A stretch of 32,530 nt of DNA from Bacteroidales bacterium (lineage in GTDB: Bacteria > Bacteroidota > Bacteroidia > Bacteroidales > UBA932), in the NCBI GenBank assembly GCA_016284265.1, contig JAEEOM010000019.1, positions 1 through 32,530 on the forward strand, given 5' to 3'. Positions within the stretch are counted from its first letter, which is position 1. Every line of letters begins with the position of its first letter. The notes under the pieces were generated by a model that searched no databases, had not been told where the DNA came from, and saw only the letters and a program-made list of their open reading frames with translations. Below, one piece after another: positions 16,653 to 31,369 of the stretch. Made by a program: the position numbers and the translations under genes.

Positions 16653-18614
16653 TCAAAGGCTCGCCCACTCCTCCATCTTGGCGTCAAGGTCACGCTTGAG
16701 CTCAAGATAGGCACGGGTGAGATCCATGATGTCGACATCAGGCGTGGGTGCCGCCAGTACTTTTTCAATGTCGGCCATCTTGGATTCCAGTTCAGCAATC
16801 TGCTTCTCCAACTGGTTTTGCCGATTCTTCGCCCGCTTTTCCTCCCGCGACTGTTGCTTCTGTTGTTGATACGAAGCTTTAGCCTGCGCGGGTTGGCATG
16901 GTGGAGCGGCAGGTTCTTTCAAGCCCGGTTCCATCCGGGCTTGAAAAGGTTCTGACGCGCGCTGGAGAGCAGGCGCTTTCTTCTCAATATCTCGAAATGA
17001 CTCTGCCTTTTTATGGCGTAGGAAATCATCGACGCCGCCCAGATGCTCTTTCACCCGGCCGTCAATGAACTCATAGACCTTGTCCACCAGGCCGTTCAGA
17101 AAGTCACGGTCGTGCGAGACCACGATAATGGTGCCGTCATAGGCTTGCAGTGCCTGCTTCAGGATATCCTTCGAGCGGATGTCCATGTGGTTCGTCGGCT
17201 CGTCGAGCGCCAGCAGATTATGGGCCTTGAGCATGAGTTTGGCCATCGCCAGCCGGGAACGTTCCCCACCGCTGAGTACCGCCACTTTCTTATCGATATC
17301 CTCTCCCTTGAAAAGAAACGCCGCCAGAATATCCCGCAACTTCATCCGGATATCCCCCACCGCGATCCGGTCCAAAGTATCGTAGACCGTCGCCTTCTTG
17401 TCGAGAATATCTTCCTGATTCTGGGCATAATAGCCGATATCGACATTGTAACCCACCTTCGCTTCGCCGGAGAAAGGCTCCAGTTCACCCATCAAGACCC
17501 GCATCATCGTCGTCTTGCCTTCCCCATTACGGCCTACGAATGCCACCTTTTCCCCCCGCTTGACAATAAGACTCGCGCCATTCAACACCGTCTTTTGCGG
17601 ATATCCGATCACCGCATCCTTTACTTCGAAAGCCACGTCCCCGCTGCGGGGTGCCGGCGGGAACTTCACATGGATGGCCGACAAGTCTTCTTCGTCGATC
17701 TCAATCCGTTCGATTCTCTCCAACTGCTTCACGCGCGACTGCACCTGGTTGCTTTTGGTCGGCTTGTAACGGAACTTCTCAATGAACTCCTCGGTCTTTT
17801 CGATCATCCGCTGCTGGTTGGCATACGCAGCCTTTTGTTGCGCAATACGCTCCTTACGAAGCTCAACATATTGGGAATAAGGAACTTTATAATCGTACAG
17901 GTGTCCCAGCATTACCTCGACCGTCCGTGTCGTACAGTTGTCCAGGAAGCGCCTGTCATGGGAAATCAGCACCAGTGAACCTGTAAAGGAGCCTTTCAGA
18001 TAATCTTCCAACCATTGGATCGACTCGATGTCCAGATGGTTCGTCGGCTCGTCGAGCAGCAGCACGTCAGGACGGCGCAGCAGGATCTTCGCCAGTTCAA
18101 TGCGCATGTTCCAGCCCTGCGAGAACGTCTCGGTCCTGCGCCCGAACTCAGCTTTCTTGAATCCAAGACCCGTCAGCGTACGCTCCACCGATTCCTCCGG
18201 CGCTTCGCTTTGGGCCAGGACCAATTGGTCGTTCACCTCGTTGAGTTCTACGATTAACCGATGATAAGACTCTGATTCATAGTCCGTACGCTCGGCAAGC
18301 TCAAGTGATATTTCATCTACTCGCCGATTCAGTCGATCGAGTTCGTCGTAGACCGTCATCACCTCTTCCAGGACAGTGTGCCCCCGGTGATGCTCCATGA
18401 TTTGCGGCAGGTAACCGATGCGCTGCCCGGCCGTACGGGTTATCTTGCCGGCCGTCGGACTTTGCAGCTCCATGATGAGCTTGAGCATGGTGCTCTTTCC
18501 TGCCCCGTTTTTGCCAACCAGCCCAATGCGATCCCGGTCGCCGATGTGTAGGCTCACGCTGTCAAGCAGCGTAAAACCGCCGTAGGAAACGGTGATGGCA
18601 TCTAATGAAATCAT
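16653..18614 (-). CDS. ABC-F family ATPase with C-terminal coiled coil
   Basis: A 653-residue soluble protein with two ABC nucleotide-binding domains and no membrane segment, as in ABC-F translation factors that act on the ribosome E site. Domain 1 has Walker A GKNGAGKST (34-42), signature FSQGW and Walker B LLLLDEPTNHLD. The charged linker (about 235-310) contains the P-site tRNA-interaction region. Domain 2 has GRNGEGKTT, LSGGERSRLAMAK and LLALDEPTNHMD. A C-terminal coiled coil follows (about 590-650). Residues about 550-574, between domain 2 and the coiled coil, are encoded by a palindromic repeat read in reverse (16894-16966). The start overlaps the stop of tatC by an ATGA, so it is the last gene of the valS-tatA-tatC unit. 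Confidence 0.93.
   Translation of the reverse strand: MISLDAITVSYGGFTLLDSVSLHIGDRDRIGLVGKNGAGKSTMLKLIMELQSPTAGKITRTAGQRIGYLPQIMEHHRGHTVLEEVMTVYDELDRLNRRVDEISLELAERTDYESESYHRLIVELNEVNDQLVLAQSEAPEESVERTLTGLGFKKAEFGRRTETFSQGWNMRIELAKILLRRPDVLLLDEPTNHLDIESIQWLEDYLKGSFTGSLVLISHDRRFLDNCTTRTVEVMLGHLYDYKVPYSQYVELRKERIAQQKAAYANQQRMIEKTEEFIEKFRYKPTKSNQVQSRVKQLERIERIEIDEEDLSAIHVKFPPAPRSGDVAFEVKDAVIGYPQKTVLNGASLIVKRGEKVAFVGRNGEGKTTMMRVLMGELEPFSGEAKVGYNVDIGYYAQNQEDILDKKATVYDTLDRIAVGDIRMKLRDILAAFLFKGEDIDKKVAVLSGGERSRLAMAKLMLKAHNLLALDEPTNHMDIRSKDILKQALQAYDGTIIVVSHDRDFLNGLVDKVYEFIDGRVKEHLGGVDDFLRHKKAESFRDIEKKAPALQRASEPFQARMEPGLKEPAAPPCQPAQAKASYQQQKQQSREEKRAKNRQNQLEKQIAELESKMADIEKVLAAPTPDVDIMDLTRAYLELKRDLDAKMEEWASL
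16894..16966 (+). repeat. Palindromic coding repeat, copy A (73 bp), inside ABC-F gene
   Basis: On the plus strand it carries the shared arm GGTGGAGCGGCAGGTTCTTT and the right arm GAAAAGGTTCTGACGCGC, separated by a perfect 12-bp stem (16917-16928 with 16935-16946, TTTCAAGCCCGG and its complement) and a 6-base loop. The host gene is on the minus strand, so the repeat is translated in reverse, giving QRASEPFQA...GLKEPAAPP in the linker after the second ATPase domain. No stop is introduced. Confidence 0.9.
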
Positions 18615-19417
18615 GCCGCTGCCTCCGATTCTTTTTCCTCAAGTTCTTCTTCAGATTCCTTCTGTTTCGGCTTGCATACCAGAATACTGATTCCATACAA
18701 GAGAGACAGCGGAATCGCCGCGATCAGCATGGAGAACGGGTCGGCCGGCGTGATGATCGCCGCCAAAACAGCAATGACCAGCACGGCCCATTTCCAGCCA
18801 CCCAGCAGCGTCTGGCGCGAAAGCAATCCAATCTGCGAAAGCACAGCCACGAGGGTAGGAATCTCGAACACGATGCCGAACAACAGCACTGTGGAACTGA
18901 CCGTCGAAATATAGGAATTCAGGGAAATGGTGTTGACTACCGCTTCGCTCACCTTGTAGCCGTCGAAGAAATTGACCATCAGCGGCAGGATGATGCAATA
19001 GCCCACCGCGATCCCCAGATAGAAAAGGAAAGAAGCAAAGAGAAACGCCCGTCGCGTAGCCTTCTTTTCATGCTGATACAATGCAGGGGCGATGAACCGC
19101 CAGATCTCGAACAGCACATACGGGCAACAAAAGATAAAGGCACACATGAACGTTACGCGCATATGCACCATAAACTGGGTGGAAAGCTCGATATTTACCA
19201 GTTGAAGACCGGTTTCCATACCGAACCAGCGATAAAAGAAGAAATCCGTCCGGGTCGGTGCCAGAATCAACGTGTCGAAGAGGAAATTCTTGAAGAAAAA
19301 AAGCACGACGAAAGCAACAAGCAAGGCAATGACCACACGGAACAACCCCTGCCTGAGTGCTTCCAGGTGATCCCAGAAGCTCATGTCTTTGGTCTCGTCG
19401 AGCTTCTCTTCCGCCAC
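18611..19417 (-). CDS. tatC: Sec-independent protein translocase subunit TatC
   Basis: A 268-residue inner-membrane protein with six predicted helices, the receptor of twin-arginine signal peptides. Conserved features are the N-terminal SFWDHLEALRQGL (TatC Glu and Arg of the signal-binding site), CCPYVLFEIWRFIAPALYQHEK with its FxxWxFxxPaL motif, the periplasmic loop, and AAIITPADPFSM near helix 5. The acidic tail (EEELEEKESEAAA) is variable in the family. It lies 6 bases after tatA and overlaps the ABC-F start by 4 bases. No tatB is seen, consistent with a TatA-TatC system in which TatA serves both roles. Confidence 0.96.
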   Translation of the reverse strand: MAEEKLDETKDMSFWDHLEALRQGLFRVVIALLVAFVVLFFFKNFLFDTLILAPTRTDFFFYRWFGMETGLQLVNIELSTQFMVHMRVTFMCAFIFCCPYVLFEIWRFIAPALYQHEKKATRRAFLFASFLFYLGIAVGYCIILPLMVNFFDGYKVSEAVVNTISLNSYISTVSSTVLLFGIVFEIPTLVAVLSQIGLLSRQTLLGGWKWAVLVIAVLAAIITPADPFSMLIAAIPLSLLYGISILVCKPKQKESEEELEEKESEAAA

Positions 19418-19423
19418 GGCCCC

Positions 19424-19672
19424 CTACTTCTCCTCCTTCTTCTCCGGCTTCTTGTCGTCCTCTTCCTTGACGATCTCTGCCTTGATCTCCTGGATGTCCT
19501 TCTCGGCATCCTTCATGCCGGCCTTGAAGCTCTTGACACCTTTGCCCAAACCATGCATGAGTTCAGGAATTTTCTTGCCGCCAAAGAGAAGAACAATCAC
19601 GAGCGCGATAATGACCCACTGCCACGGGCCGATGACGCCCATCGGAAGCATTGCTGCAAATAAACTTGCCAT
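19424..19672 (-). CDS. tatA: Twin-arginine translocase subunit TatA
   Basis: An 82-residue protein with one N-terminal transmembrane helix (about 14-31, GPWQWVIIALVIVLLFG), the conserved FGGKKIPEL hinge, an amphipathic helix (GLGKGVKSFKAGMKDAEKD) and an acidic/lysine-rich tail, as in TatA/TatE. Phe and Gly before the hinge are conserved in the family. It polymerises around TatC to form the export pore for folded proteins. It sits between valS (19 bases upstream) and tatC (6 bases downstream). Confidence 0.95.
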   Translation of the reverse strand: MASLFAAMLPMGVIGPWQWVIIALVIVLLFGGKKIPELMHGLGKGVKSFKAGMKDAEKDIQEIKAEIVKEEDDKKPEKKEEK

Positions 19673-19691
19673 ATCCTTATCGTTTAATGTG

Positions 19692-22397
19692 TTATTTCTT
19701 TAGATCAGATAACCTAATCCGGAGATTCTCCAGTTTCGTCGTTGCGTCGGCCAGCTTCTTGCGTTCCATCTCAACGACCTTGGCCGGGGCATTGGCCACA
19801 AACTTTTCATTCGACAACTTGGCATTGACCCCACGCAGGAATCCTTCGTAGCGCTGCATCTCCGCCTCGATCTTGGCCACTTCTGCCGCTACGTCGATCA
19901 TGCCATCAAGCGGCACATTGAACTCCGAAGTTCCCACCATGAAGACCTCGCCAGCCCCGGAGAACGCTTCGACCGAAACGATTTCAGAAACAAAAGCCAT
20001 CTTGCGGACGACCGGCTCCATCGAGGCTGGGAATGTACCCTTTACCTGCAGTTTCAACGGTTCTTTAGGCGCGATGTTCTTGGCCTGACGCAGGGCACGC
20101 ACGCCCACCACCACCTCACAAGCCATTGCAAAATCAGCGACCAGCTGCTCGTCGAAGGCACCGCCCAGCGGCATCTGCTGGAACATGATCGTTTCGCCCT
20201 CGGCCCGGTCTTCCAGCGCATGCCAGAGCTCCTCGGTGATGAACGGCATCACCGGATGGAGCATCCGCAGCAGCGCATCGAAGAACGACAACGTCGCTTC
20301 ATAGGTCGTGCGGTCGAGCGGCTGCTGCACATTGTTCACGAATACAGGCTTGACGAGTTCCAGGTACCAGGCGCAGAAGTCGTCCCAGAAGCACTTGTAG
20401 GTGGCCATCACCGCATCGTTGATGCGGAAGTTTTCGTAGTCCCGGTGCGCTTGCGCGGCAGCCTGGGAAAGACGCGCACGGAACCACGCCACGGCCACGC
20501 GGTTGGCTTCGCTCTGCGGCACATCAGCCACCGTCCAGCCCTTCACGAGCCGGAATGCGTTCCAGATCTTGTTGCTGAAGTTGCGACCCTGTTCCACCTG
20601 CGTCTCGTCAAAGAGGATATCATTGCCGGCCGAGGTGCAGAGCAGGATACCCAGACGCACCCCGTCAGCGCCGTATTTCTCAATCAGGCCGATCGGATCA
20701 GGCGAGTTGCCCAACTGCTTGCTCATCTTGCGACCGAGTTTGTCACGCACAATCCCGGTGAAATAGACGTTGCGGAACGGCACGTCCTTCATATACTCCT
20801 CGCCGGCCATGATCATGCGGGCCACCCAGAAGAAGATAATATCGGGAGCCGTCACCAGGTCGCTGGTCGGATAGTAGTACTTGATTTCGGGGTTGCCGGG
20901 ATTGCGGATGCCGTCGAACAGAGAGATCGGCCAAAGCCAACTCGAGAACCAGGTGTCGAGCGCATCTTCGTCGTGCCGCAGTTCCTCGGCCGTAAGTTTT
21001 TCATAGCCAGCTATCTGGTGCGCCTTTTCCAGCGCTTCTTCCCGATTCATCGCCACCACGAAGCGTTCCTCCTCCCCTTCCGGTGTCGGAAGGTAGTAGG
21101 CAGGAATGCGGTGTCCCCACCAAAGCTGGCGGCTGATGCACCAGTCGTCGATATTCTCAAGCCATTGCCGATAGCTGCCCACGAATTTCTCAGGATAGAA
21201 CTTGATGTCGCCTTCGAGCACGGGTTTCAGCGCAATCTCGGCCAGGTGCGGCATTTTGAGATACCACTGCTTGCACAGGCGCGGCTCCACAGCCGTGTCT
21301 GCGTTGCGTTCCGAATAGCCCACCTTGTTCACGTAGTCTTCCACCTTTTCCATCAGGCCCGCGGCTTCCAAGTCCTTGGCAATGCGTTTGCGTACCACGT
21401 TGCGGTCCAGACCCACGTACAGCGGCGACTGGTTGCTGATTGTTCCGTCGGGATTGAAGATATCGATGGTTTCCAGGTTATGCGTCTTGCCGAGGTTGTA
21501 GTCGTTCACGTCGTGGGCCGGGGTCACCTTCAGGCAGCCCGTACCAAATTCGATGTCCACATAGCGGTCCTCGATGACGGGGATCATCCGGTTCACAAGC
21601 GGCACAATGACCTTGTGGCCGCGCAGCCATTGGTTCTTCGGGTCCTTCGGGTTGATGCACATGGCCGTATCGCCCATGATCGTCTCGGGACGCGTCGTAG
21701 CCACTACGGCGTAGTAACGGCCCTGCTCATCGCGATGCAGGACTTCCCCTTCCTCACCAGTCGGCCGGACGGCGTCCTGGTCGGCTACATAGTATCTCAG
21801 ATAAAAGAGTTTGGAATGTTCTTCCTTATAGACCACCTCAATGTTCGAGAGGGCGGTCTGGGCCTTCGGATCCCAGTTTACCATGCGCAGACCCCGATAG
21901 ATGAGGCCTTTATCGTACAAATCGCAGAATACGCGCAGGACACTCTCAGAACGTACCTCGTCCATCGTAAAAGCGGTGCGGTCCCAGTCGCAGCTGGCAC
22001 CCAGACGACGTAATTGTTTGAGAATGATACCACCATGTTCACGGGTCCAGTCCCAGGCATGTTCGAGGAACTGTGCGCGGGAAAGATCCTGCTTGCGGAC
22101 ACCTTGCTCAGCGAGACGGCCCACCACTTTGGCTTCGGTAGCGATGGAGGCGTGATCGGTACCCGGTACCCAGAGGGCATTCTTGCCGAGCATGCGTGCG
22201 CGGCGCACGAGCACGTCCTGCAGCGTGTTGTTCATCATGTGGCCCATGTGAAGCACACCGGTCACGTTGGGCGGCGGAATCACGATGACGTAAGGTTCGC
22301 GTCCATCGGGTTCGGAATGAAAGAATCGATGTTCCAGCCAGTACTGGTACCATTTGTCCTCGGTCTGCGAGGGATCGTATTTTGCGGAGATCTCCAT
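19692..22397 (-). CDS. valS: Valyl-tRNA synthetase
   Basis: A 901-residue class I synthetase that charges tRNA-Val in the cytosol. The ATP-binding HIGH motif appears as HMGH (50-53, in [13 protein letters not shown]), and the second motif as KMSKQLGNS (Lys557-Lys560). The connective editing domain (about 200-400) includes [15 protein letters not shown] and [26 protein letters not shown] and [13 protein letters not shown] mark the rest of the catalytic core. The anticodon-binding domain and a C-terminal coiled coil ([19 protein letters not shown]...) complete it. The ATG at 22397 fits the family start ([10 protein letters not shown]); an in-frame ATG at 22439 and a longer frame to 22478 exist. 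It heads the unit with tatA, tatC and an ABC-F gene. Confidence 0.97.
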
Positions 22398-22409
22398 GTC
22401 TTTTCGTCG

Positions 22410-22428
22410 TGTCCGGCGGGACCGGACA
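22410..22428. other. Hairpin in the valS leader
   Basis: TGTCCGG-CGGGA-CCGGACA forms a perfect 7-bp stem with a 5-base loop, between the -7 box at 22448-22455 and the valS ATG at 22397. It would form in the leader RNA, about 12 bases upstream of the start codon, and could affect initiation. It is not a T-box by any feature that can be seen. Confidence 0.4.
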
Positions 22429-22447
22429 TCAAGGTTCATTAATCCTG

Positions 22448-22475
22448 CAAATTTAATTAAATTATCGTATCTTTG
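22448..22475. promoter_or_regulatory. Divergent promoter boxes for valS and the fucose-isomerase-like gene
   Basis: The minus strand reads TAAATTTG at 22448-22455 towards valS, and the plus strand reads TATCTTTG at 22468-22475 towards the gene at 22519. Both match TAnnTTTG exactly. They are separated by 12 AT-rich bases. Confidence 0.6.
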
Positions 22476-22487
22476 CATTCCGCCACT

Positions 22488-22499
22488 CGTTTATAAACG
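22488..22499. repeat. 12-bp perfect palindrome in leader
   Basis: CGTTTATAAACG lies 12 bases after the plus-strand -7 box and 19 bases before the ATG at 22519, around or just downstream of the expected transcription start. It could be a repressor site; no regulator is identified. Confidence 0.45.
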
Positions 22500-22518
22500 T
22501 TTTTACACGGATATCGCC

Positions 22519-23856
22519 ATGCCCAATTCGATCAATCTCGTCATTTTCTCTTCTTCCCTCCACGATCACACGAGTGTCATCGGATCCCGGAAAGAACTGT
22601 TCGAAGGCATCCGCCGCTTCGCAGACCTCGATATCACCTATCCCTCGATGCTCGCATCCGGCCGGACGGCGCTCGACAGCCTGATTGACGGAGGCGGCTG
22701 CCCCGGATGTGAACTTCCTGACAGCCAGCATAGCAAAACCATCTGTTTCATCGCCACGGGTGGAACCGAGGAGATATTCAAAGATTACGTCGAGAGCCTG
22801 CCCCGCCCCGTCCTGCTGTTGAGCGACGGACTCCACAACGCTTTTGCAGCCTCCTTTGAAATCAAGACCTGGCTTTCACAGAAAGGCATCGCCTGCACCT
22901 TGTTCAATGCACCACTGGACTACAATCCCGCTTTTTTTGAGCAAATGGAGCAGGAACTCTTCGGTGACTCCAGTTCGGCTGATACCCTGACCGCTTCGGA
23001 TCCGCTCCCTGCTTTTCCGAAAAACGTGATGCGGGCGTTCGAAAAGACGCGAATCGGTCTGATCGGCGGAGCCAGTGGCTGGCTCATCTCTTCCGGCATC
23101 GACCGGGAAACCGTAACAAAAACCTACGGGGTCAAGTTCGACGACATCACGCTGAGCGAATTGGAGCAGGACTTTTCTGCCGTATCTGCCTCTGATCCCG
23201 AAGTAGAAAAAGTAGGGAGCAGGATGGATGCCTACCTGACTGACGACCGTACACCCGCCGACCTGCGCGAAGCCGCCCGTATGTATGTCGCCCTGCGCCG
23301 TTTGTGCGCCCGTCATGCGCTGAACGCACTCACACTGAAATGTTTCGGAATTCTGGGAAGTTGCCGGACCACGGCCTGTCTGGCATTGGCTCTGCTCAAC
23401 GACGAAGGGATCATCGCCGGCTGCGAAGGAGACATTCCCGCATTGTGGACCATGCTTTATGTCAAATATGTTTATGGGCAAGCGGCTTTCATGGCCAATC
23501 CCGCCTCATCGAACCGTCGGGAGCGCACCATCGACTTCGCGCATTGCACCATCCCCCTGGCCATGGTCCACGGCTTCCGTCTCCCCTCTCACTTCGAGTC
23601 GCAGTCTGGCATCGGCATCGCGGGCAGCGTCCCGAGCGGCCGCTATCGCATCGTGAAGATTTCTGGTGCGCGACTCGACCAGTTCTACGAAACGGAAGGC
23701 GACCTGATCATGAACACCAACATCCCGCAGCGATGCCGTACGCAGATCCGGTTCCGCTTCGCTTCGGAAGAAGAATTCGACCGCTTTTTCCGGGTCAGTA
23801 AAGGAAATCACATAATTCTGTGTAAAGCCGCTGGACCGGCAGGCCCATCACGTTGA
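22519..23856 (+). CDS. L-fucose/L-arabinose isomerase-like protein (COG2407-type)
   Basis: A 445-residue cytosolic protein. The N-terminal half is a Rossmann-like domain (INLVIFSSS, FIATGGTEEIF, PVLLLSDGLHNAFAAS), and the C-terminal half has the pattern of the FucI/AraA fold: RIGLIGGASGWL, LTLKCFGIL, the acidic active-site-like stretch AGCEGDIPALWTMLYVKY, FMANPASSN and FAHCTIPLAM with a His. Members of COG2407 isomerise or act on deoxy-sugars, but many are of unknown substrate, so no specific reaction is claimed. The start at 22519 opens directly into the first strand; a longer frame would run into valS. The last 62 bases overlap the end of the convergent maf gene. It is not in an operon. Confidence 0.7.
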   Translation: MPNSINLVIFSSSLHDHTSVIGSRKELFEGIRRFADLDITYPSMLASGRTALDSLIDGGGCPGCELPDSQHSKTICFIATGGTEEIFKDYVESLPRPVLLLSDGLHNAFAASFEIKTWLSQKGIACTLFNAPLDYNPAFFEQMEQELFGDSSSADTLTASDPLPAFPKNVMRAFEKTRIGLIGGASGWLISSGIDRETVTKTYGVKFDDITLSELEQDFSAVSASDPEVEKVGSRMDAYLTDDRTPADLREAARMYVALRRLCARHALNALTLKCFGILGSCRTTACLALALLNDEGIIAGCEGDIPALWTMLYVKYVYGQAAFMANPASSNRRERTIDFAHCTIPLAMVHGFRLPSHFESQSGIGIAGSVPSGRYRIVKISGARLDQFYETEGDLIMNTNIPQRCRTQIRFRFASEEEFDRFFRVSKGNHIILCKAAGPAGPSR

Positions 23857-24373
23857 AATAGGAGCCCCGGATCGCCGTAATTCCCGTGTAGCCGATCCAC
23901 TCCTGGACCCCATAGGCGCCGGCCTTGTCATAAGGCCGGTATTTTTCAACATAATACGCGATTTCTCCCTCTGTCAGCGGCTTGAAGTCCACTTCGGTCG
24001 TATCGCTGAACGTGTGGATCCTTTCGCAGGTACGCAGGGCGACACCGGTCGTCACGGTATGGGTGCGTCCCGACAATTCCTGCAGCATGGCAACGGCTTC
24101 CCCCCGGTCGCGGGGTTTGCCCAGAATCTCCTGATCGAGGAAGACAAGGGTATCGGCAGTAATCAGCACTTCTCCGGGCAACAGCGCCCGGTGGAAGGTC
24201 TCGGACTTGTGCCGGGCGAGGAATTCGGGGATGGCATGATGCGGAAGATCCTCGCTATAAGCCTCCCGTTCGTCCTTGTTCACCTCGACCCGGAACTCGA
24301 TATCGAGGCCTTTCAACAACTCACGACGGCGCGGCGATGCCGACGCCAATGTAAAACAATAATCTTCAAACAT
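23795..24373 (-). CDS. maf: Maf-family nucleotide pyrophosphatase
   Basis: A 192-residue cytosolic enzyme of the Maf/HAM1 type, which hydrolyses non-canonical or modified nucleoside triphosphates (dTTP/UTP and methylated pyrimidines in the YhdE-like branch). The signature SASPRRRELL (11-20), VEVNKDE, the catalytic Asp in LITADTLVFLDQEILGKP, and the late DKAGAYGVQEWIGYTGITAIRGSYFNVMGLP block are all intact. It is the last of four tightly spaced minus-strand genes and lies 14 bases after kdsC. Confidence 0.94.
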   Translation of the reverse strand: MFEDYCFTLASASPRRRELLKGLDIEFRVEVNKDEREAYSEDLPHHAIPEFLARHKSETFHRALLPGEVLITADTLVFLDQEILGKPRDRGEAVAMLQELSGRTHTVTTGVALRTCERIHTFSDTTEVDFKPLTEGEIAYYVEKYRPYDKAGAYGVQEWIGYTGITAIRGSYFNVMGLPVQRLYTELCDFLY

Positions 24374-24387
24374 TCGATGATGTCGGC

Positions 24388-24960
24388 TTATACGTTCTTA
24401 CCCGTATGTAAGGCGACTTGGGTGATGGCATCAGGATGGCTGCCTTTCCAAGGATTTTCGGGGTCGAAGAGCCATTTGCCCTGGGGTTTGAGGACGCTTT
24501 CAATCAGGTTGCGGACGCAGCCGCGGCCGCCGGGGAATTGCGACACCCAATCGGCGGCGGAACGGACTTCGGCTACGGCGTCAGCAGGACAGACGCCCAG
24601 ACCCGCAAGCTCGATGGCCGGGATATCGGGGATGTCATCCCCGACGAAAGCGACCTGCGCTGGTTCCAGGCCGTTGCGCCGGCAGAAATGCAGGAGGTCT
24701 TCGGCCTTGTTTTTCGAGAGCATGTACAAGTTCTCATCGCCGATGCCCAGCGAGTGGGCGCGGTGAAGCAGGCTTGGCGACACACCACCGGTAATGAAAG
24801 CGCAAGGAAAGCCGTTGTCTACAGCCGTTCTCACGCCGAAACAATCTTTCGAATTAAACTGGCGAAGCAAATCGCCGTCGGGCATGGCCAGCACAAGCCC
24901 GTCGGTAAAGACCCCGTCCACATCGAACGCAAAAGCCTTGATATCCTCAAATCGTGTCAT
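24388..24960 (-). CDS. kdsC: 3-deoxy-D-manno-octulosonate 8-phosphate phosphatase (KdsC-type HAD)
   Basis: A 190-residue HAD phosphatase of the short C0 type. Motif I is AFDVDGVFTDG (nucleophile Asp13, acid/base Asp15), followed by the Lys/Asp region FNSKDCFGVR, motif II FITGG, and motif IV FVGDDIPDIPAI. GLGVCPADAVAEVR then ADWVSQFPGGRGCVRNLIE match KdsC, which forms Kdo from Kdo 8-phosphate for lipid A core synthesis and works as a tetramer. It lies 9 bases after the M28 peptidase gene and 14 before maf. It is slightly longer than average members, mostly at the C-terminus. Confidence 0.92.
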   Translation of the reverse strand: MTRFEDIKAFAFDVDGVFTDGLVLAMPDGDLLRQFNSKDCFGVRTAVDNGFPCAFITGGVSPSLLHRAHSLGIGDENLYMLSKNKAEDLLHFCRRNGLEPAQVAFVGDDIPDIPAIELAGLGVCPADAVAEVRSAADWVSQFPGGRGCVRNLIESVLKPQGKWLFDPENPWKGSHPDAITQVALHTGKNV

Positions 24961-24969
24961 AAGCAGAAA

Positions 24970-26322
24970 CTAACGGGCGACGGCTGGCAGGCTCGGCTGG
25001 CCGGCCGCAGAAAGAGCGCGGACGGCGAAGAAATAATTATCTTTGCTGAGCGGGCACTGGAAGGTTTGCGCGAACAGGGCCGGATCGGCCGGCACGGTGC
25101 CAAGAGACTGCCACGCTGGCTGGTCGGTCTCCCTATACAGAACCTGGTAGGAGACTGCCGGGTCGACTTGTCCGTTGCCGAGGCGAACCGGATCCCAAGC
25201 AATCACCGTATGGTTCTCCAGTGCCCGGGCATTGGCAATGCGGGCGTTCTCAGGACGAGCAGGCGCCTGTGCCAGACTCATGGCCGTAGCCAGATTGATG
25301 CGGATGTTCCTGGTCAGCGAAGGAATATCGACACCCGACAGGAGATCCCCGTAATCGATCCCGTTCTCCGTGCGGACATCCTGATGCGTCCGGTCGTAAT
25401 TTTCACAATACTCACTCATGCGTACGGCCGTGAAACCTTCCCGCAGGAAAGGGGTATGGTCGCCGCTGCGTCCATAGCGGTCATTCCGGTAGATGAGCTT
25501 TACCTCTTGGTCAGGCACGTAAATCTGAGCCGTCTCCCGGATATAGCGGGCAAGCTGGCGATGATCGCTGTCCTCACCGTTGCGGCTCTCGGAGAAGACC
25601 CGGACCTTATGGTCTTCCACCAGGCCGGTGCCGCTTGCCTGCGCATTGCCGATCATATCATTGTTGATCATGGCCAGGACAGGCCACCCCTCCTCCTTGG
25701 CCCGTGCCGCCATAAACTTGGAACCGTCCAGACCCTGCTCTTCCCCGGAGACAAACAAGCACTTGACCGTCTGTTCCAACGGAATCTCTGACAGGATGCG
25801 CACCACTTCCAGCAAGCAGGCCAGTCCGCTGCCGTCGTCATTGGCGCCCGGCGCAAAAGAAGTGGAATCCATCACGTCAGCCACCCGCGTATCAATATGG
25901 GCAGAAAGCAGAATCTCGCGCTCGGCCTTTGTACCGGGCAGGGTGACCATGACCTGAGGAGCCTGGAGCACGCGGTCGTATCGCCCGCCTTTTTCCCCTG
26001 CCGGGTAGTGAATCACTTCCACGACAGGAACAGGACGGACACCTTCCGCACGACTCGCCCAAGTCTCGCAACGCGTGACGAGGTAATGCACAGCCGCACC
26101 GATACCCCGTTCCGGATCGGTCTGCGTGCTTAAGGTATGCCGGGTATGGAATCCGACCAACTCTTCAATCCAGGTCCGGATACTGTCGGAACTGACTTGG
26201 GCGACTGCAGCGGAAATGACGGGGTCGGCTGGAATTCCGGAAGGACACGCCGTGTCAACGGGTTTCTGGCAGGCAGCCACTACCGTCACGCAGGCAAACA
26301 AAAGGATAAAGAGGCGTTTCAT
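24970..26322 (-). CDS. M28 family zinc aminopeptidase lipoprotein
   Basis: A 450-residue exported lipoprotein (signal to Cys18, VVAAC). The peptidase domain has the two-zinc ligands in SAHIDT, GANDDGSG, the catalytic Glu-Glu pair in VSGEEQGLDGS, the Asp in INNDMIGNA, and the late His in DRTHQ. About residues 350-450 form a fibronectin-like domain (ENHTVIAWDP...YQVLYRE...YFFAVRALSAAG). It should cleave amino acids from peptides in the periplasm or at the cell surface. The ATG at 26322 was chosen over TTG at 26328. It lies 12 bases after the amidohydrolase gene, in one operon with kdsC and maf. Confidence 0.92.
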   Translation of the reverse strand: MKRLFILLFACVTVVAACQKPVDTACPSGIPADPVISAAVAQVSSDSIRTWIEELVGFHTRHTLSTQTDPERGIGAAVHYLVTRCETWASRAEGVRPVPVVEVIHYPAGEKGGRYDRVLQAPQVMVTLPGTKAEREILLSAHIDTRVADVMDSTSFAPGANDDGSGLACLLEVVRILSEIPLEQTVKCLFVSGEEQGLDGSKFMAARAKEEGWPVLAMINNDMIGNAQASGTGLVEDHKVRVFSESRNGEDSDHRQLARYIRETAQIYVPDQEVKLIYRNDRYGRSGDHTPFLREGFTAVRMSEYCENYDRTHQDVRTENGIDYGDLLSGVDIPSLTRNIRINLATAMSLAQAPARPENARIANARALENHTVIAWDPVRLGNGQVDPAVSYQVLYRETDQPAWQSLGTVPADPALFAQTFQCPLSKDNYFFAVRALSAAGQPSLPAVAR

Positions 26323-26334
26323 GATCAAACAGCG

Positions 26335-27447
26335 CTATTTCTTGCGGGAAGACAGCAGCCGGACGGCATTGTCGTGGTAAATCTTCTTCAGGACCTCGTC
26401 GGAGAGCCCGATCCCCTGCATCGGCCAGTGATAGGACTGTTCGTCGAGATAGAAGTGCTCGTCTTCCGTTTCAAGGATCCGCCACTGGGCCCGATACATG
26501 CTCGGGTCGGGGTCATTGTCGGTGCCGAAGAGGAGGCGGTCCTGATACTTTTCATAAAAGCGTTTGGTGGCCCGCGGGGTCACGCAGGTTTCCTGATGAC
26601 GGGCCGAGATATCGAGCCAGAGTTTGGGATGGCTGTCCATCACTTCGCTCAGACGGGCATAGTCGTGGTTGTAATTGAGCAGGTGGCAGGCGATGAAGGT
26701 CGTGTTCGGATGCCGTTCCACGCATTCCAAGAACGCGTTCACCACACCGTCGAGGTCGAGGATGCCGGGCTCGGACAGGTCGATGCGCCAGTGCTTCGCG
26801 TTCATCAGGCCGTCATTGTGCGCATCGATCGGCTCATACATCCAGATGGGATCGCCGCTGTGGATCGACACGGGCAGACCCAGCTCGCCGCATTTCTCGA
26901 ACAGCGTATCGAACTTCGGATCGTTGAAATGCAGGCCGGGTTCCTTGACTTTCCCGGAGATCCGCTCGCCCATGCCCTTGTCGATGAGCTCGCCCACACC
27001 GGCCGCGCCTTTCGCATAGCAGCGTTCCAATTCCGCGATGGCGCACGCGGGGAATTCGGGCTGGTCCCATTTCGTCATATCGAAGCCACACCAGATCTCG
27101 AACTTGTCGGAGATGCCCTTGTAGAGGTCGTACAGGCAGTCGAATTCTTCGCCGAAGGCCTTGGTGTGGATGATGACTTTTTCAATGTTGTTCTCTTCCA
27201 GCGTCTTCGCCCAGGCCCGGATGCCCGCCTCATCGTCGCGGTAAGGATGCGAGTGCATGTCGATGACGGAGAATTTGGCGGCCGTCGGCTTGTGTTCCTC
27301 GAGCTGGAACACGGAGACGGGTTCATAATCCTTCAGCTGAAGCTGATCCACCGGATCCTGGTCCTGGGAAATAGCGACTTTGTTGCCGGAACATCCGGCA
27401 ATGAGCAACAGGCTGGCCGCAATTGAGAAGAAAAGGGACTGTTTCAT
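26335..27447 (-). CDS. Amidohydrolase-2 family lipoprotein
   Basis: A 370-residue protein with a lipoprotein signal (MKQSLFFSIAASLLLIAGC). The body is an amidohydrolase-related TIM barrel (PF04909-like): DMHSHPY (metal HxH), KVIIHTK, GLPVSIHSGDP, FIACHLLN, a conserved DISAR, and the late metal Asp in LLFGTDND. Relatives are metal-dependent hydrolases or decarboxylases with varied substrates; its own is unknown. A lipid anchor implies action outside the cytoplasm. The ATG at 27447 opens the signal peptide; a longer frame to 27519 has no support. It is the first gene of the unit with M28, kdsC and maf. Confidence 0.85.
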   Translation of the reverse strand: MKQSLFFSIAASLLLIAGCSGNKVAISQDQDPVDQLQLKDYEPVSVFQLEEHKPTAAKFSVIDMHSHPYRDDEAGIRAWAKTLEENNIEKVIIHTKAFGEEFDCLYDLYKGISDKFEIWCGFDMTKWDQPEFPACAIAELERCYAKGAAGVGELIDKGMGERISGKVKEPGLHFNDPKFDTLFEKCGELGLPVSIHSGDPIWMYEPIDAHNDGLMNAKHWRIDLSEPGILDLDGVVNAFLECVERHPNTTFIACHLLNYNHDYARLSEVMDSHPKLWLDISARHQETCVTPRATKRFYEKYQDRLLFGTDNDPDPSMYRAQWRILETEDEHFYLDEQSYHWPMQGIGLSDEVLKKIYHDNAVRLLSSRKK

Positions 27448-27467
27448 AGGTTCGGGTTTGAGAATAA

Positions 27468-27496
27468 CAAATGTAAGGAAAAATACGATAACTTTG
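27468..27496. promoter_or_regulatory. Divergent promoter boxes for the amidohydrolase operon and the aldo/keto reductase
   Basis: The minus strand reads TACATTTG at 27468-27475, 20 bases from the ATG at 27447. The plus strand reads TAACTTTG at 27489-27496, 28 bases from the ATG at 27525. Both match TAnnTTTG exactly. Confidence 0.62.
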
Positions 27497-27524
27497 CAAC
27501 GCACTGAACAGAACCCCATTCCCC

Positions 27525-28721
27525 ATGCAATACAGAAAGGACAAAAACGGCACCGAACTGTCGATTCTCGGTTACGGATGCATGCGCTTTTCTCGCAAGG
27601 GCGCCAGCATCGACGTGGACAAAGCGGAACGGGAAATCATGGCAGCTTACCAGGCCGGCGTAAACTACTACGACACCGCCTACATCTACCCTGGCAGCGA
27701 AACCGCCCTGGGGCAGATCCTCGAACGCAATGGCATCCGCGACCAAGTCTACATCGCCTCAAAGCTTCCCCAATACCTCATCCAGCGCCGCGCTGCGCTC
27801 GACCGCTACTTCGATGAGCAGTTGAAACGGTTGCGGACGGACCATATCGACTACTACCTGATGCACCAGCTCACGGACTTTGCCCAATGGAAGAAACTCA
27901 AGGACATCGGAATCATCGCTTGGATTGCGGAAAAGAAACAGGCCGGTGCCATCCGGAACATCGGATTCTCCTATCACGGCAATACCGATCAATTCCTGCA
28001 AATCCTTGCCGACTATGAATGGGATTTCTGCCAGATCCAATACAACTACCGCGACGAACATACGCAGGCTGGCGCCACCGGTCTGAAGGCTGCCGCCGCC
28101 CGGGGAATTCCAGTTATCATCATGGAGCCGCTCCGCGGCGGCAAACTCGTGGGAATGCTCCCGGAATCGGCGAAAAAGATCATCGCCGCCAACCCGCGCG
28201 GCTGGAGCCCTGCGTCCTGGGCTTTCCGCTGGCTCTACAACCAGCCGGAAGTGACCGTCGTCCTTTCGGGCATGAACTCCCTGGAGATGGTCGAAGAAAA
28301 TGTCCGGACCGCCTCCGAGGCCGGTGTCGGCGCCTTCACGGAGGAAGACCACGCCTTGATCGACAAAATCCGGGAAGAAATCAAGCGGACCGAGAAAGTC
28401 GGTTGTACCGGCTGCCGCTACTGCATGCCTTGCCCCCATGGCGTTGACATACCCGGTGCCTTCCGTTGCTACAATGCGATGTACAGCGAATCCAAGTCCG
28501 CCGGCCGTTTCCAATACGCCCAAACCGTCGGGATGACCCAAAAACCCGCTTTTCCTTCCCAATGCATCGAATGCGGCAAATGCGAAAAGCACTGCCCGCA
28601 GGCCATTCCCATCCGGGAAAAGCTCAAAGAAGCTGACAAAGCCCTCCGGCCGCTGCCCTATCGCATCGGCATCGACATCGTCCGGCGTTTCATGTTCCGG
28701 AAGAGAGCGCCCCGCTCCTAA
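27525..28721 (+). CDS. Aldo/keto reductase with C-terminal 4Fe-4S domain
   Basis: A 398-residue cytosolic oxidoreductase. The N-terminal TIM barrel has the aldo/keto reductase tetrad Asp50, Tyr55, Lys80 and His114 (in YYLMHQL), plus the NAD(P)H-binding region near the end of the barrel (TVVLSGMNSLEMVEEN). Residues about 290-360 add two Cys clusters: C294, C297, C300, C303 followed by Pro, and C347, C350, C353, C357 followed by Pro, the latter a standard 4Fe-4S ferredoxin motif. This fused architecture is common in anaerobes, with unknown substrates. It is monocistronic; its stop overlaps the convergent trmO stop by 4 bases. Confidence 0.93.
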   Translation: MQYRKDKNGTELSILGYGCMRFSRKGASIDVDKAEREIMAAYQAGVNYYDTAYIYPGSETALGQILERNGIRDQVYIASKLPQYLIQRRAALDRYFDEQLKRLRTDHIDYYLMHQLTDFAQWKKLKDIGIIAWIAEKKQAGAIRNIGFSYHGNTDQFLQILADYEWDFCQIQYNYRDEHTQAGATGLKAAAARGIPVIIMEPLRGGKLVGMLPESAKKIIAANPRGWSPASWAFRWLYNQPEVTVVLSGMNSLEMVEENVRTASEAGVGAFTEEDHALIDKIREEIKRTEKVGCTGCRYCMPCPHGVDIPGAFRCYNAMYSESKSAGRFQYAQTVGMTQKPAFPSQCIECGKCEKHCPQAIPIREKLKEADKALRPLPYRIGIDIVRRFMFRKRAPRS

Positions 28722-29482
28722 AAGGCCCGGATCATGCCGGAGTCTACGACGAAGTGGATGTCACGGCCAGCATAAGACAAGCCGTAGGTACGGCTGGCGT
28801 CTGGCTTGCCGGCGTGGTAGGCCGGGCGGGGATCCTGGGCGAGGATTTCCCGCAGCGTGGCCAGTTGGCAGTCAGAAAGACTGGCAGCCAGGGAAGGATC
28901 GATTTCCACCTCGAGCAAGGTCTGCGGGTTCGCCCCGACAAAGCCGTCGGTAGCGTCGGAATGGATATCGACGCCGGGCAGATAGGGTTTGATGTCGTAG
29001 ATGGGCGTGCCATCCATCAGGTCGGCACCAGTGACCATCAGGACGAGACCGTTTTCCCCATCTGCCTCAATCCCTTCAAGGCGAACCGATGACAAGCCGA
29101 TTGGATTCGGCCGGAAGGGCGAGCGCGTAGCGAAAACGCCCATCCGGACATTGCCGCCCAATCTGGGAGGCCTAACTGTCGGGGACCAATGGGGATCCGG
29201 CTCTCCAACGCGCGTCAGAACCTTTTCAGACCCAGCGGGGACGCTTGGGTCTGAAAGAACCTGCCGCTCCACCAGGCCAGCGCGAGTTGTATCTCCATTG
29301 GTCAGCGAAAATCCCCAGATGAGCCAGATGTGCGAAAAACCCTCGAGGCCGCGAAGGGCTTCGGGGACACGGTAGGCGGGTTCGAAGACAATCTTCGAGC
29401 GCAACGACGGCGCCAGGCCGCTCTGGCGCGGCAGCCCGAACTTCGTCGGAAAATCGTTGTGGATACGGGCAATGACCTCCAT
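28718..29482 (-). CDS. trmO: tRNA (N6-threonylcarbamoyladenosine-37 N6)-methyltransferase TrmO, with a repeat-encoded insertion
   Basis: A 254-residue protein of the TsaA/TrmO (VirR) family, which methylates t6A37 in tRNA-Thr. Conserved blocks are FPTKFGLPRQSGL, GLEGFSHIWLIWGF, WSPTVRPPRLGGNVRMGVFATRSPFRPNPIGLS and the C-terminal DIKPYLPGVD region with YAGRDIHFVVD. Between the HIWLIWGF strand and the WSPTVRPP block the chain carries about 25 extra residues (69-93, GLVERQVLS...EKVLTRVG) encoded by a palindromic repeat at 29204-29279. Relatives usually have only a short turn here. The frame stays open and the flanking motifs are intact, so the protein is likely functional. It is divergent from the second ABC-F gene. 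Confidence 0.93.
   Translation of the reverse strand: MEVIARIHNDFPTKFGLPRQSGLAPSLRSKIVFEPAYRVPEALRGLEGFSHIWLIWGFSLTNGDTTRAGLVERQVLSDPSVPAGSEKVLTRVGEPDPHWSPTVRPPRLGGNVRMGVFATRSPFRPNPIGLSSVRLEGIEADGENGLVLMVTGADLMDGTPIYDIKPYLPGVDIHSDATDGFVGANPQTLLEVEIDPSLAASLSDCQLATLREILAQDPRPAYHAGKPDASRTYGLSYAGRDIHFVVDSGMIRAF
29204..29279 (-). repeat. Palindromic coding repeat, copy B (76 bp), inside trmO
   Basis: The minus strand has the same arms as the other copies (GGTGGAGCGGCAGGTTCTTT on the left, GAAAAGGTTCTGACGCGC on the right). The central stem is 11 bp (29224-29234 with 29246-29256, TTTCAGACCCA on the plus strand) around 11 bases that can pair further. It is read in the sense direction of trmO and gives GLVERQVLSDPS...EKVLTRVG. 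Confidence 0.92.
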
Positions 29483-29510
29483 GACAATGCGAAGATAGCT
29501 ATTTTTCGCC

Positions 29511-29518
29511 TATCTTTG
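29511..29518 (+). promoter_or_regulatory. Promoter -7 box of the second ABC-F gene, near-leaderless
   Basis: TATCTTTG, exact consensus, ends 6 bases before the ATG at 29525. Transcription would therefore begin at or within a few bases of the start codon. A weaker minus-strand TATCTTCG at 29490-29497 may serve trmO. Confidence 0.6.
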
Positions 29519-29524
29519 CATGCC

Positions 29525-31369
29525 ATGGCTTCATACCTCCAGATCGAGAACATTTCCAAGTCGTACGGACCGAAAGTGCTGTTCGACCACATCGGCTTCA
29601 ACGTGAACGAAGGCGACAAGATCGCCCTGATCGCGCCCAACGGCACAGGAAAGACCTCGCTGATGCGGATCCTGGCCGGCAAGGACAAATCGGACTCCGG
29701 CGGCCAGATCCGGTTCCTCAAGGCAATCCGCATCGCTTTTCTGGAACAGGATTATGATTTCAATCCGGAAGCGACACTGCTCGAGCAGGTTCTTTCCGGC
29801 AGCACCCCTTTTCTGGAACATCTCGATGCCGAAGGGCAATTTGAATACGAGCACCGCATCATCCGCCTGCTGACAGAATTCGGCCTGAGGCCCGACCAGC
29901 GGATGCGGGAATTGTCAGGCGGCGAAATCAAGCGTGTGGCCCTCACCCAGGTACTGGCTCCGGAAGCCGATTTCCTGATTCTCGACGAGCCCACGAACCA
30001 CCTCGACGTCGATGCCATCGAATACCTCGAGAACTACTTGAAGCGCTCACGCTGTACCCTGTTCATGGTCACCCACGACCGGTATTTCCTCGACCGCGTC
30101 TGCAACATCGTCATGGAACTCGACCACGGGCAGATCTATATTTATAAAGGGGATTACGAGAACTATCTGGAGAAGCGCGCCGAGCGCATCGCCAATTACA
30201 ACGCCGAGACCGACAAGGTACGCAATCTCCTCCGCCGCGAACTGGAATGGATGCACGCCACCCCCTGTGCCCGGACCGGCAAGGCCAAGTACCGCAAACA
30301 AGCCTTCTGGGAACTCAAAGGCCGCGCCGAACAGGCCTACACCATCCGGCAAGTCTCGATGGAAGCCCTCGAAGGAGCCACCCGCCTCGGCACCAAAATC
30401 ATCGACTGCTACGATGTCTGCTTCTCATTCGATGATTGCGGGCCGAGCGATGGCCTGGTGGAGCGGCAGGTTCTTTCAGGCCCGCTTGACGGGCCTGAAA
30501 AGGTTCTGCCGCGCGTTGGAAAAGGCCCGCTAATAAAAGACTTCAGCTATAAGTTCCAGCGATACGACCGGATCGGAATCGTGGGAAGAAACGGCATCGG
30601 AAAAAGTACGTTCATCGACTTGCTTATCGGGGCGCTGGAACCGACGGCAGGACGCATCGAACGAGGCGAATCCCTCAAGATCGGCTACTACCGCCAGGAT
30701 GGCATGCAGTTCGACGAGGACCAGACTGTACTGGAAACCGTCAATAACCTCGGACTCCTCAACCAATTCCTCTTTCCGCACGACATGCTGAGCAACCCCG
30801 TCAGCAAACTCTCCGGCGGCGAAAAGCGAAGGCTCTACCTGCTTACCATCCTGATGCAGCAGCCCAACTTCCTGATTCTCGACGAACCCACCAATGACCT
30901 CGACATCGTAACCCTCAACATCCTCGAGGAATATCTGCTCGACTTCAAGGGCTCCCTGATCGTTGTCTCTCATGACCGCCACTTCCTCGACCGCGTCGTC
31001 GACCACCTGCTGGTGTTCTGCGGAGACGGCCTCATCAAGGACTTCGTTGGCGGCTACACCGAATACCGTTCTTTCATCAAAGACTACGAAGCTGACCAGC
31101 GCCACCAGGCAAAACCACAGGCAACCAAGATGCCCGTTCAAGCCGGACATGACGAAAAAAAGAAACGCCTTACGTATAAAGACCAGCGCGAACTTGCGCA
31201 GCTGGAAGCCGATCTCGAAAAGCTGAACGCCGAGAGAAGTGCGGTCGAAGCACTCCTCTCCCGCCCCGACGCTCCCTACGAACAAATCCGCGACGCCTCC
31301 GAGCGCTATGAGGCGCTGAAGCAGGAAATCGATGAAAAAGAGTTCCGGTGGCTTGAACTGTCCATGTGA
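29525..31369 (+). CDS. ABC-F family ATPase (Uup-like), with a repeat-encoded insertion
   Basis: A 614-residue soluble protein with two ABC domains. Domain 1 has Walker A APNGTGKTS, signature LSGGEIKRVAL and Walker B FLILDEPTNHLD. The linker includes RRELEWMHATPCARTGKAKYRKQ, the pattern typical of Uup-like ABC-F proteins. Domain 2 has GRNGIGKST, LSGGEKRRLYLL and FLILDEPTNDLD, and a C-terminal coiled coil follows (about 545-610). At residues 310-332, just before the LIKDFSYKF strand of domain 2, the chain contains GLVERQVLSG...EKVLPRVG encoded by a palindromic repeat (30451-30520); relatives have only a short loop there. The start at 29525 gives the first ABC strand directly; the frame continues upstream to 29330 only by chance. 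It is separate from the M13 gene, which has its own promoter. Confidence 0.94.
   Translation: MASYLQIENISKSYGPKVLFDHIGFNVNEGDKIALIAPNGTGKTSLMRILAGKDKSDSGGQIRFLKAIRIAFLEQDYDFNPEATLLEQVLSGSTPFLEHLDAEGQFEYEHRIIRLLTEFGLRPDQRMRELSGGEIKRVALTQVLAPEADFLILDEPTNHLDVDAIEYLENYLKRSRCTLFMVTHDRYFLDRVCNIVMELDHGQIYIYKGDYENYLEKRAERIANYNAETDKVRNLLRRELEWMHATPCARTGKAKYRKQAFWELKGRAEQAYTIRQVSMEALEGATRLGTKIIDCYDVCFSFDDCGPSDGLVERQVLSGPLDGPEKVLPRVGKGPLIKDFSYKFQRYDRIGIVGRNGIGKSTFIDLLIGALEPTAGRIERGESLKIGYYRQDGMQFDEDQTVLETVNNLGLLNQFLFPHDMLSNPVSKLSGGEKRRLYLLTILMQQPNFLILDEPTNDLDIVTLNILEEYLLDFKGSLIVVSHDRHFLDRVVDHLLVFCGDGLIKDFVGGYTEYRSFIKDYEADQRHQAKPQATKMPVQAGHDEKKKRLTYKDQRELAQLEADLEKLNAERSAVEALLSRPDAPYEQIRDASERYEALKQEIDEKEFRWLELSM
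30451..30520 (+). repeat. Palindromic coding repeat, copy C (70 bp), inside second ABC-F gene
   Basis: It carries the same left arm as the other copies (GGTGGAGCGGCAGGTTCTTT) and the right arm with one change (CTGCCGC for CTGACGC). The central stem is a perfect 11 bp (30474-30484 with 30490-30500) with a 5-base loop. In this copy GCGGCAG (30463-30469) and CTGCCGC (30506-30512) also pair, giving an outer 7-bp stem. It is read in the sense direction and in the same frame as the trmO copy. Confidence 0.92.

Follow-up and report, generated by a model that had tools for sequence, protein, structure and literature searches.

Analysis of a 32,530-nucleotide stretch from a Bacteroidales bacterium (contig JAEEOM010000019.1 of assembly GCA_016284265.1; hereafter the window) revealed three copies of a palindromic hairpin element, each lying within a conserved protein-coding gene (Table 1). 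G000 denotes the genome holding the window, and the G and L numbers used below denote the genomes and loci that were compared. The left arm of the element, GTGGAGCGGCAGGTTCTTTCA, had three exact matches in the window against a mean of 0.00 in 100 shuffles, and the right arm, TGAAAAGGTTCTGACGCGCG, three matches at 0-1 mismatch against a mean of 0.01; these shuffle counts ruled out a chance origin of the repeats. An initial annotation of this DNA had described three copies with a left arm identical over at least 23 bases and a right arm of 25 bases, two of them variable, placed inside conserved genes, two in the sense and one in the antisense direction, with all frames open. The nucleotide sequence confirmed the copies, their coordinates, both arms, the orientations and the open frames, and Pfam matches supported the host genes as ABC-F, TrmO and ABC-F. 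The same annotation held that each copy adds about 23-25 residues without a stop; the frames are indeed open, but the extents given by a covariance model built from 26 copies showed that the element proper is 78-84 nt long, corresponding to 26-28 residues.

In the first ABC-F gene the element lies between FRDIE and YQQQKQQSREEK, a site that is also occupied in other genomes, and in the second ABC-F gene, the true start of which is probably downstream of the listed open reading frame (ORF) start, it lies between CYDV and IKDFSYKFQRYDRIGIVG. TrmO with the element and its flanking arms is 254 aa long, compared with 219 aa in the relative G051 and 216 aa in three other relatives. Structure prediction for this protein gave a mean predicted local distance difference test (pLDDT) score of 62, and values below 50 for residues 59-128, a span that comprises the insert plus conserved residues.

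Table 1. Copies of the hairpin element, their flanking arms and host genes in the window.
Feature	Position	Strand	Remarks
Element copy 1	16888-16968	+	81 nt, 91.4 bits; antisense to the ABC-F host gene
Host gene 1, ABC-F ATPase	16653-18614	-	ORF; Pfam ABC_tran, ABC_tran_Xtn
Element copy 2	29202-29285	-	84 nt, 100.1 bits; sense in trmO
Host gene 2, TrmO	28718-29482	-	Pfam TrmO_N/TrmO_C; insert between GFS and WSPTV (alignment A4)
Gene-5' flank arm of inverted repeat around copy 2, ACCAATGGAGAT	29291-29302	-	Sequence reading
Gene-3' flank arm around copy 2, ATCCCCATTGGT	29185-29196	-	Overlaps the conserved W codon of TrmO
Element copy 3	30445-30522	+	78 nt, 89.6 bits; sense in the second ABC-F gene
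Short outer arm of copy 3, GCGGGCC	30438-30444	+	Sequence reading; paired in single-strand fold
Short outer arm of copy 3, GGCCCGC	30524-30530	+	Sequence reading; paired in single-strand fold
Host gene 3, ABC-F ATPase	29330-31369	+	ORF as listed; Pfam

Covariance model searches indicated that the three copies belong to a repeat family, as had been proposed, with nine copies in G000; of 40 genomes in the genus, 21 had matches at E<=0.01. Under stricter filters, nine of 199 sampled genomes of the family matched, all from the same genus (1 of 25 genera) with no match in any other genus of that sample, and G000 was the sole match among 295 genomes sampled across the order. Searching the genome collection for the exact left arm yielded 31 stretches, 30 of them from metagenome-assembled genomes of Bacteroidales or Bacteroidia, and four genomes with the exact arm were labelled sheep, goat or buffalo omasum. 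The remaining stretch, on a Bryobacteraceae contig, reached only 12.4 bits (E 0.36) with the model and was rejected, and three viral contigs carrying the exact left arm were likewise unsupported by it. Blastn of copy 3 against collections of phages and plasmids gave no match, and the window had no Rfam match at gathering level. The family is, in these searches, confined to one Bacteroidales genus, and searches of the open-licence literature showed no such family described in Bacteroidales, which does not prove that none exists.

Alignment of the copies revealed a common architecture in which a conserved GGCCTGGTGGAG leader is followed by a lower stem, by an internal loop with GGTTC on each side, and by a covarying upper stem. 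Pairing was found in 94.9% of 390 cells; double-sided changes occurred in 11 of 15 pairs overall and in all nine pairs of the upper stem, where structure is kept while sequence varies. Covariation of the whole structure was 0.523 compared with 0.168 in shuffles, and none of 500 shuffles reached the observed value.

Comparison with relatives showed that the copies are absent from some orthologues. In the trmO/ABC-F region, G051 and the window are 86% identical over 2418 bases; trmO of G051 is element-free and has FSESEGWSPTV as its short loop, while copy 3, in the ABC-F gene, is common to both genomes with a core identity of 97%. Relatives with short element-free loops were also found for cbiD and for glycerate kinase, and L165 (G042), L174 (G022) and L176 (G003) lack the element at the second ABC-F site, where they read CYDV..KDF. 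Since element-free orthologues exist for trmO, cbiD, the second ABC-F site and glycerate kinase, the copies are insertions, as the initial annotation had proposed, and the segment is not carried by all orthologues, a situation that would have pointed to ancient protein sequence. Among 35 copies at shared sites, the nearest relative was the same site in another genome for 20 (14% expected at random) and another site in the same genome for eight (9% expected at random), which indicates that copies have descended at their sites and have also spread or been converted more recently.

The distribution of copies among genes and gaps is mixed. Within the window no copy is intergenic, as had been noted, but the rule fails genome-wide: six of the nine G000 copies are genic, namely the three in the window and those in cbiD, in a gene for an HI0933-like flavoprotein and in an endonuclease/phosphatase-family gene, and three are intergenic, one of these extending a few codons into the ends of listed ORFs. 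For the genus, a host gene was assigned to 45 of 77 strong copies, the other 32 being intergenic or without an assigned host; genic status was partly set by open frames, so that 45/77 is not an unbiased rate. Host sites recurred across species in cbiD (before ATVIKDAGDDPD), at the two ABC-F sites, and in trmO, glycerate kinase, a CobD-like aminotransferase and the HI0933-like protein. Copies occur in both orientations and in five reading frames (approximate counts; L035 was counted as sense by its longest open frame while its CobD-like host frame is antisense). The intergenic copy at L006:1482-1580 spans nearly the entire gap between two convergent ORFs, and this place is also occupied in G051 (L068).

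The reading frame was open through the insert in all 19 element-bearing genes surveyed (ten cbiD, three TrmO and six glycerate kinase), which do not represent independent events. Because a motif search could have missed frame-broken copies, the 78 loci obtained from the cbiD, trmO and glycerate kinase family searches were scanned with the model. The scan recovered those 19 copies, two copies within the ABC-F gene next door, and weak half-element and reverse-strand matches of known copies, and revealed no further full copy within cbiD, trmO or glycerate kinase genes. There was no support for selection keeping frames free of stops within the element, an average of 4.32 of six frames being stop-free in the 77 copies and 4.25 in shuffled sequence. 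The element is not depleted of stops and the open frames therefore reflect host-gene selection and base composition; the idea of an element built for coding is unsupported. Among the glycerate kinase loci, L047:997-2697 is a single open frame with glycerate kinase and RNase HII domains.

Further comparison of the copies disclosed features that lie beyond the initial annotation: inverted host arms, flips, repeated occupation of the same gene loops, an element-free palindrome and half-element remnants. Many genic copies are bordered by a long inverted repeat (IR) of host coding sequence, perfect over up to 29 bp. Such arms, with a few element bases included, pair over 29 of 29 columns in G000 cbiD, 30 of 31 in G043 cbiD and 25 of 25 in G011 trmO. 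In the window, the repeat around the trmO copy pairs in 12 of 13 columns (IR score 21), and the flanks of copy 3 score 14, inside the chance range. Flanks were analysed for 105 copies, weak hits without fetched loci and a reverse-strand partial hit (L051) being excluded; 33 of them had an IR score of at least 20, compared with 1.05% of 10,920 mismatched left/right flank pairs.

The arms at one site differ between species and yet match themselves within each, most clearly for cbiD in G000, G011 and G022. In 39 copies at shared sites, hand-chosen like the 18 orthologous pairs below from the recurrent sites, the mean score was 27.7 for a copy's own arms and 13.9 when an arm was paired with that of another species at the same site, with 23/39 and 20/222 pairs, respectively, scoring at least 20. 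Arms at this score were found in 24 of 45 genic copies and in two of the 32 other strong copies (Fisher p=1.7e-5); the genic class as first drawn (24/41 vs 2/36) came from loci viewed early, partly because they were armed, and the present counts were obtained after further spanning frames had been tested and L001, L079 (as the L001 orthologue), L086 and L110 had been reassigned as genic.

Alignment of the 18 orthologous pairs revealed that the core is better conserved than the near flanks in 15 and that the element is inverted in three. The first flip is in cbiD of G046 and G051 (flanks 94/91% identical, core 94%), the second in cbiD of G011 and G022 (flanks 78/81%, core 94%), and the third at the first ABC-F site of G000 and G051 (core 84%). 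The cbiD copies of G000 and G051, with a core identity of 70%, look from their sequences like different copies. The trmO gene of G022 carries no element and instead harbors a palindrome whose 29-bp arms mismatch at a single position and closely resemble the arms around the G011 trmO element. A scan of 870 kb of fetched loci gave 59 distinct palindromes, of which this one was the longest. The possibility that the element targets palindromes already present was considered and rejected, the other scanned palindromes appearing terminator-like, to belong to other repeats or to be intra-element when viewed by eye and without annotation. Half elements that stay in frame were recognised by eye in the glycerate kinase genes of G011 and G004 and in G043 trmO; the model gave 22.2 bits for the G011 and 18.5 bits for the G043 half element.

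We consider it likely that the family is a mobile hairpin resembling the Rickettsia palindromic elements (RPEs), and that the palindrome then grows, homogenises and inverts through replication template switching, rewriting host coding sequence as it does so; both the mobility and template switching as the cause are what we infer. Structured hairpins of about 80 nt would insert at many places, and insertions in genes would persist if they are in frame and in tolerant loops, where, judging from the open frames, they would be translated. The inserted hairpin would seed template switching, the polymerase folding back or jumping strands, such that adjacent host sequence is copied in inverted form onto the other side of the element. 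Repeated switching would homogenise both arms and sometimes invert the entire element between them, and later partial deletion could reduce the insert to a half element, or to the palindrome alone, that remains as a new protein segment. Template switching is proposed because self-matching arms, spacer inversion and coding palindromes match its reported effects: homogenisation of inverted-repeat arms and inversion of spacers in coding genes of yeast (PMC8604942), and coding palindromes in mitochondria of Nematomorpha, for which template switching is one possible cause named (PMC6649704).

Several points weigh against this interpretation. Foremost among them is the bias of arms toward genes, which a purely mutational process should not distinguish and does not explain. 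Strong arms are lacking from 21 of the 45 genic copies (scores below 20), with armless examples at the second ABC-F site of G000, G046 and G051 (14, 10 and 10) and in CobD of G046 and G051 (9 and 9), and the G051 member of the flipped cbiD pair has weak arms (score 14, seven columns). The way in which genic status was set and the non-independence of the 19 open genes count here as well. No target-site duplication of the kind expected of a miniature inverted-repeat transposable element (MITE) of a DDE transposon was noticed in the flanks viewed by eye, no systematic search having been made, and no mobilising enzyme was found, Y1_Tnp linkage being what was searched. Insertion was not observed in real time. 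The spacer inversions reported in yeast are of only 2-5 bp, compared with about 80 bp here (PMC8604942).

With regard to how the element moves, one possibility, which we regard as rather doubtful, is that of a non-autonomous element of the repetitive extragenic palindromic (REP) kind, moved by a REP-associated tyrosine transposase (RAYT; a Y1 HUH transposase) that recognises the GGAG-hairpin. REPs carry a tetranucleotide of the GGAG kind at the base of the hairpin, and in the present element GGAG stands directly 5' of the lower stem. Moreover, PF01797 (Y1_Tnp) was detected in 20 of 21 element-bearing and in seven of 19 element-free genomes of the genus (Fisher p=1e-4; two of the seven fall below the family cut-off), but this co-occurrence may follow clade structure. 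A linked Y1/RAYT gene, which the initial annotation had suggested looking for, was not found next to any copy: 30 of 68 Y1_Tnp places were scanned with about 1.5 kb per side, and the best match (13.1 bits, E 0.49) was at chance level. The other 38 were assessed by coordinates only, and when 116 positions of the element were compared with the 68 of Y1_Tnp, in a set without G000 and without the weakest hits, the closest pair was 1.7 kb apart. In addition, G000 has nine copies and no detected Y1_Tnp match. The element thus shares with REP/RAYT systems the conserved basal tetranucleotide and the presence of Y1_Tnp genes in most of the same genomes, and differs in having no linked Y1_Tnp gene among the loci checked; REPs are also extragenic, while here over half of the strong copies were assigned to a host gene.

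Regarding the origin of the arms, they could have been made at insertion, with the 3' end of a single-stranded hairpin priming the copying of the adjacent strand to give an inverted target duplication. The concentration of arms in genic copies would fit, and in cbiD and TrmO the arm beside conserved codons looks by eye to be native, with the inverse copy across the element. We nevertheless consider this explanation unlikely, given the armless genic copies. Furthermore, the cbiD element common to G011 and G022 (core 94%) has different arms in the two genomes, each pair self-matching (24/25 and 23/24 columns), and the cbiD near flanks of G046 and G051 are 72% identical compared with 91-94% further out; the flanks have therefore also been rewritten after insertion. 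Tentatively, the two processes might be combined: the insertion of the hairpin would itself write an inverted host copy, renewed afterwards by template switching, and so found a self-correcting, flippable coding palindrome that generates protein loops.

It is still less probable that the hairpin is kept for a role at the RNA level, such as mRNA processing, translational bypass or attenuation, with selection for pairing explaining the covarying arms. The enrichment of arms among genic copies, the strongly covarying upper stem and the better conservation of the core relative to the near flanks would all agree with such a role, but the use of both orientations and five frames does not, nor does the open frame kept in every surveyed gene, which bypass would not need, nor the near-perfect TrmO palindrome of G022 without an element. 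Ancient ordinary protein sequence, repeated by chance or convergence, hardly deserves consideration: several species have sites in common, and for 20 of 35 copies the most similar one was that at the same site in another species, but element-free orthologues refute it at four recurrent sites, and the same DNA recurs in either orientation, both in genes that are unrelated and in the gaps between genes.

Among known systems, RPEs are the nearest in behaviour, likened here by description and not by sequence comparison. Like RPEs as portrayed in a 2024 review (PMC10969869), the present element is a small palindromic family found in frame in unrelated genes, where it adds a peptide segment, and it is dispersed, with insert-free orthologues. 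RPE-like behaviour in another phylum, as had been anticipated, is borne out in this respect; the overall interpretation of the initial annotation thus stands for the family, the in-frame insertion and the likeness to RPEs, and not with regard to the many intergenic copies and the lack of a linked Y1/RAYT gene. To our knowledge RPEs have no transposase. RPEs are about 150 bp long and occur in another phylum, while the present element is about 80 nt and occurs in both orientations at one site. Its host-derived arms stay complementary, whereas RPEs are said to lose repeat identity with time (PMC6649704). Self-matching host-derived arms and flips set the element apart from RPEs.

The coding palindromes of Nematomorpha mitochondria are likewise coding inverted repeats with near-perfect arms, but the available part of that report mentions no shared central element (PMC6649704), while here a dispersed element centres each palindrome. 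Template switching at quasipalindromes also combines arm homogenisation with spacer inversion in coding DNA (PMC8604942), and the present family, with arms that self-match within species while differing between them and a spacer flipped in three of 18 pairs, behaves likewise; it differs in spacer length and in being seeded by a mobile-like hairpin.

Rickettsia is the best-known source of palindromic elements that lie in frame, and the present family adds a second phylum. According to the 2024 review, in-frame fusions by intragenic MITEs are not unusual, the level reached by RPEs is unusually high, and a similar route of protein evolution is conceivable in other prokaryotes (PMC10969869). Here related species show genes rewritten around a hairpin element, and the many relatives allow a single gene to be compared in its full, flipped, half and element-free forms. 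Two questions thus become testable: whether new coding sequence really arises through template switching at hairpins, and how palindromic elements of this short kind spread and persist within genes.

Diverged relatives of the family were also observed. The copies of G007 (L113-L125) form a related subfamily of 31-41 bits with near-constant outer arms (GTCGCGGAGCGCGGGCT..AGCCCGC..GCGGAGCGAC), several of them looking almost identical, which suggests a recent burst of a longer unit. Reading by eye showed that other diverged subfamilies (L177, L146, L149 and L261) retain GGCCTGGTGGAG and GGTTC-like loops while their lower stem differs (AAATCAG/CTGATTT and GCGTTCA/TGAACGC), so that the lower stem covaries between subfamilies. 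Another repeat, of the form CCCGGTCAAGCCGGGAATGACG, adjoins several copies when the flanks are viewed by eye (L001, L016, L019 and L093), and a different hairpin, AAGTTGATCCCCCT..AGGGGGATCAACTT, is recurrent in several genomes, being found at L207:5597-5643, L202:3892-3938, L047:2781-2827 and L016:1163-1197.

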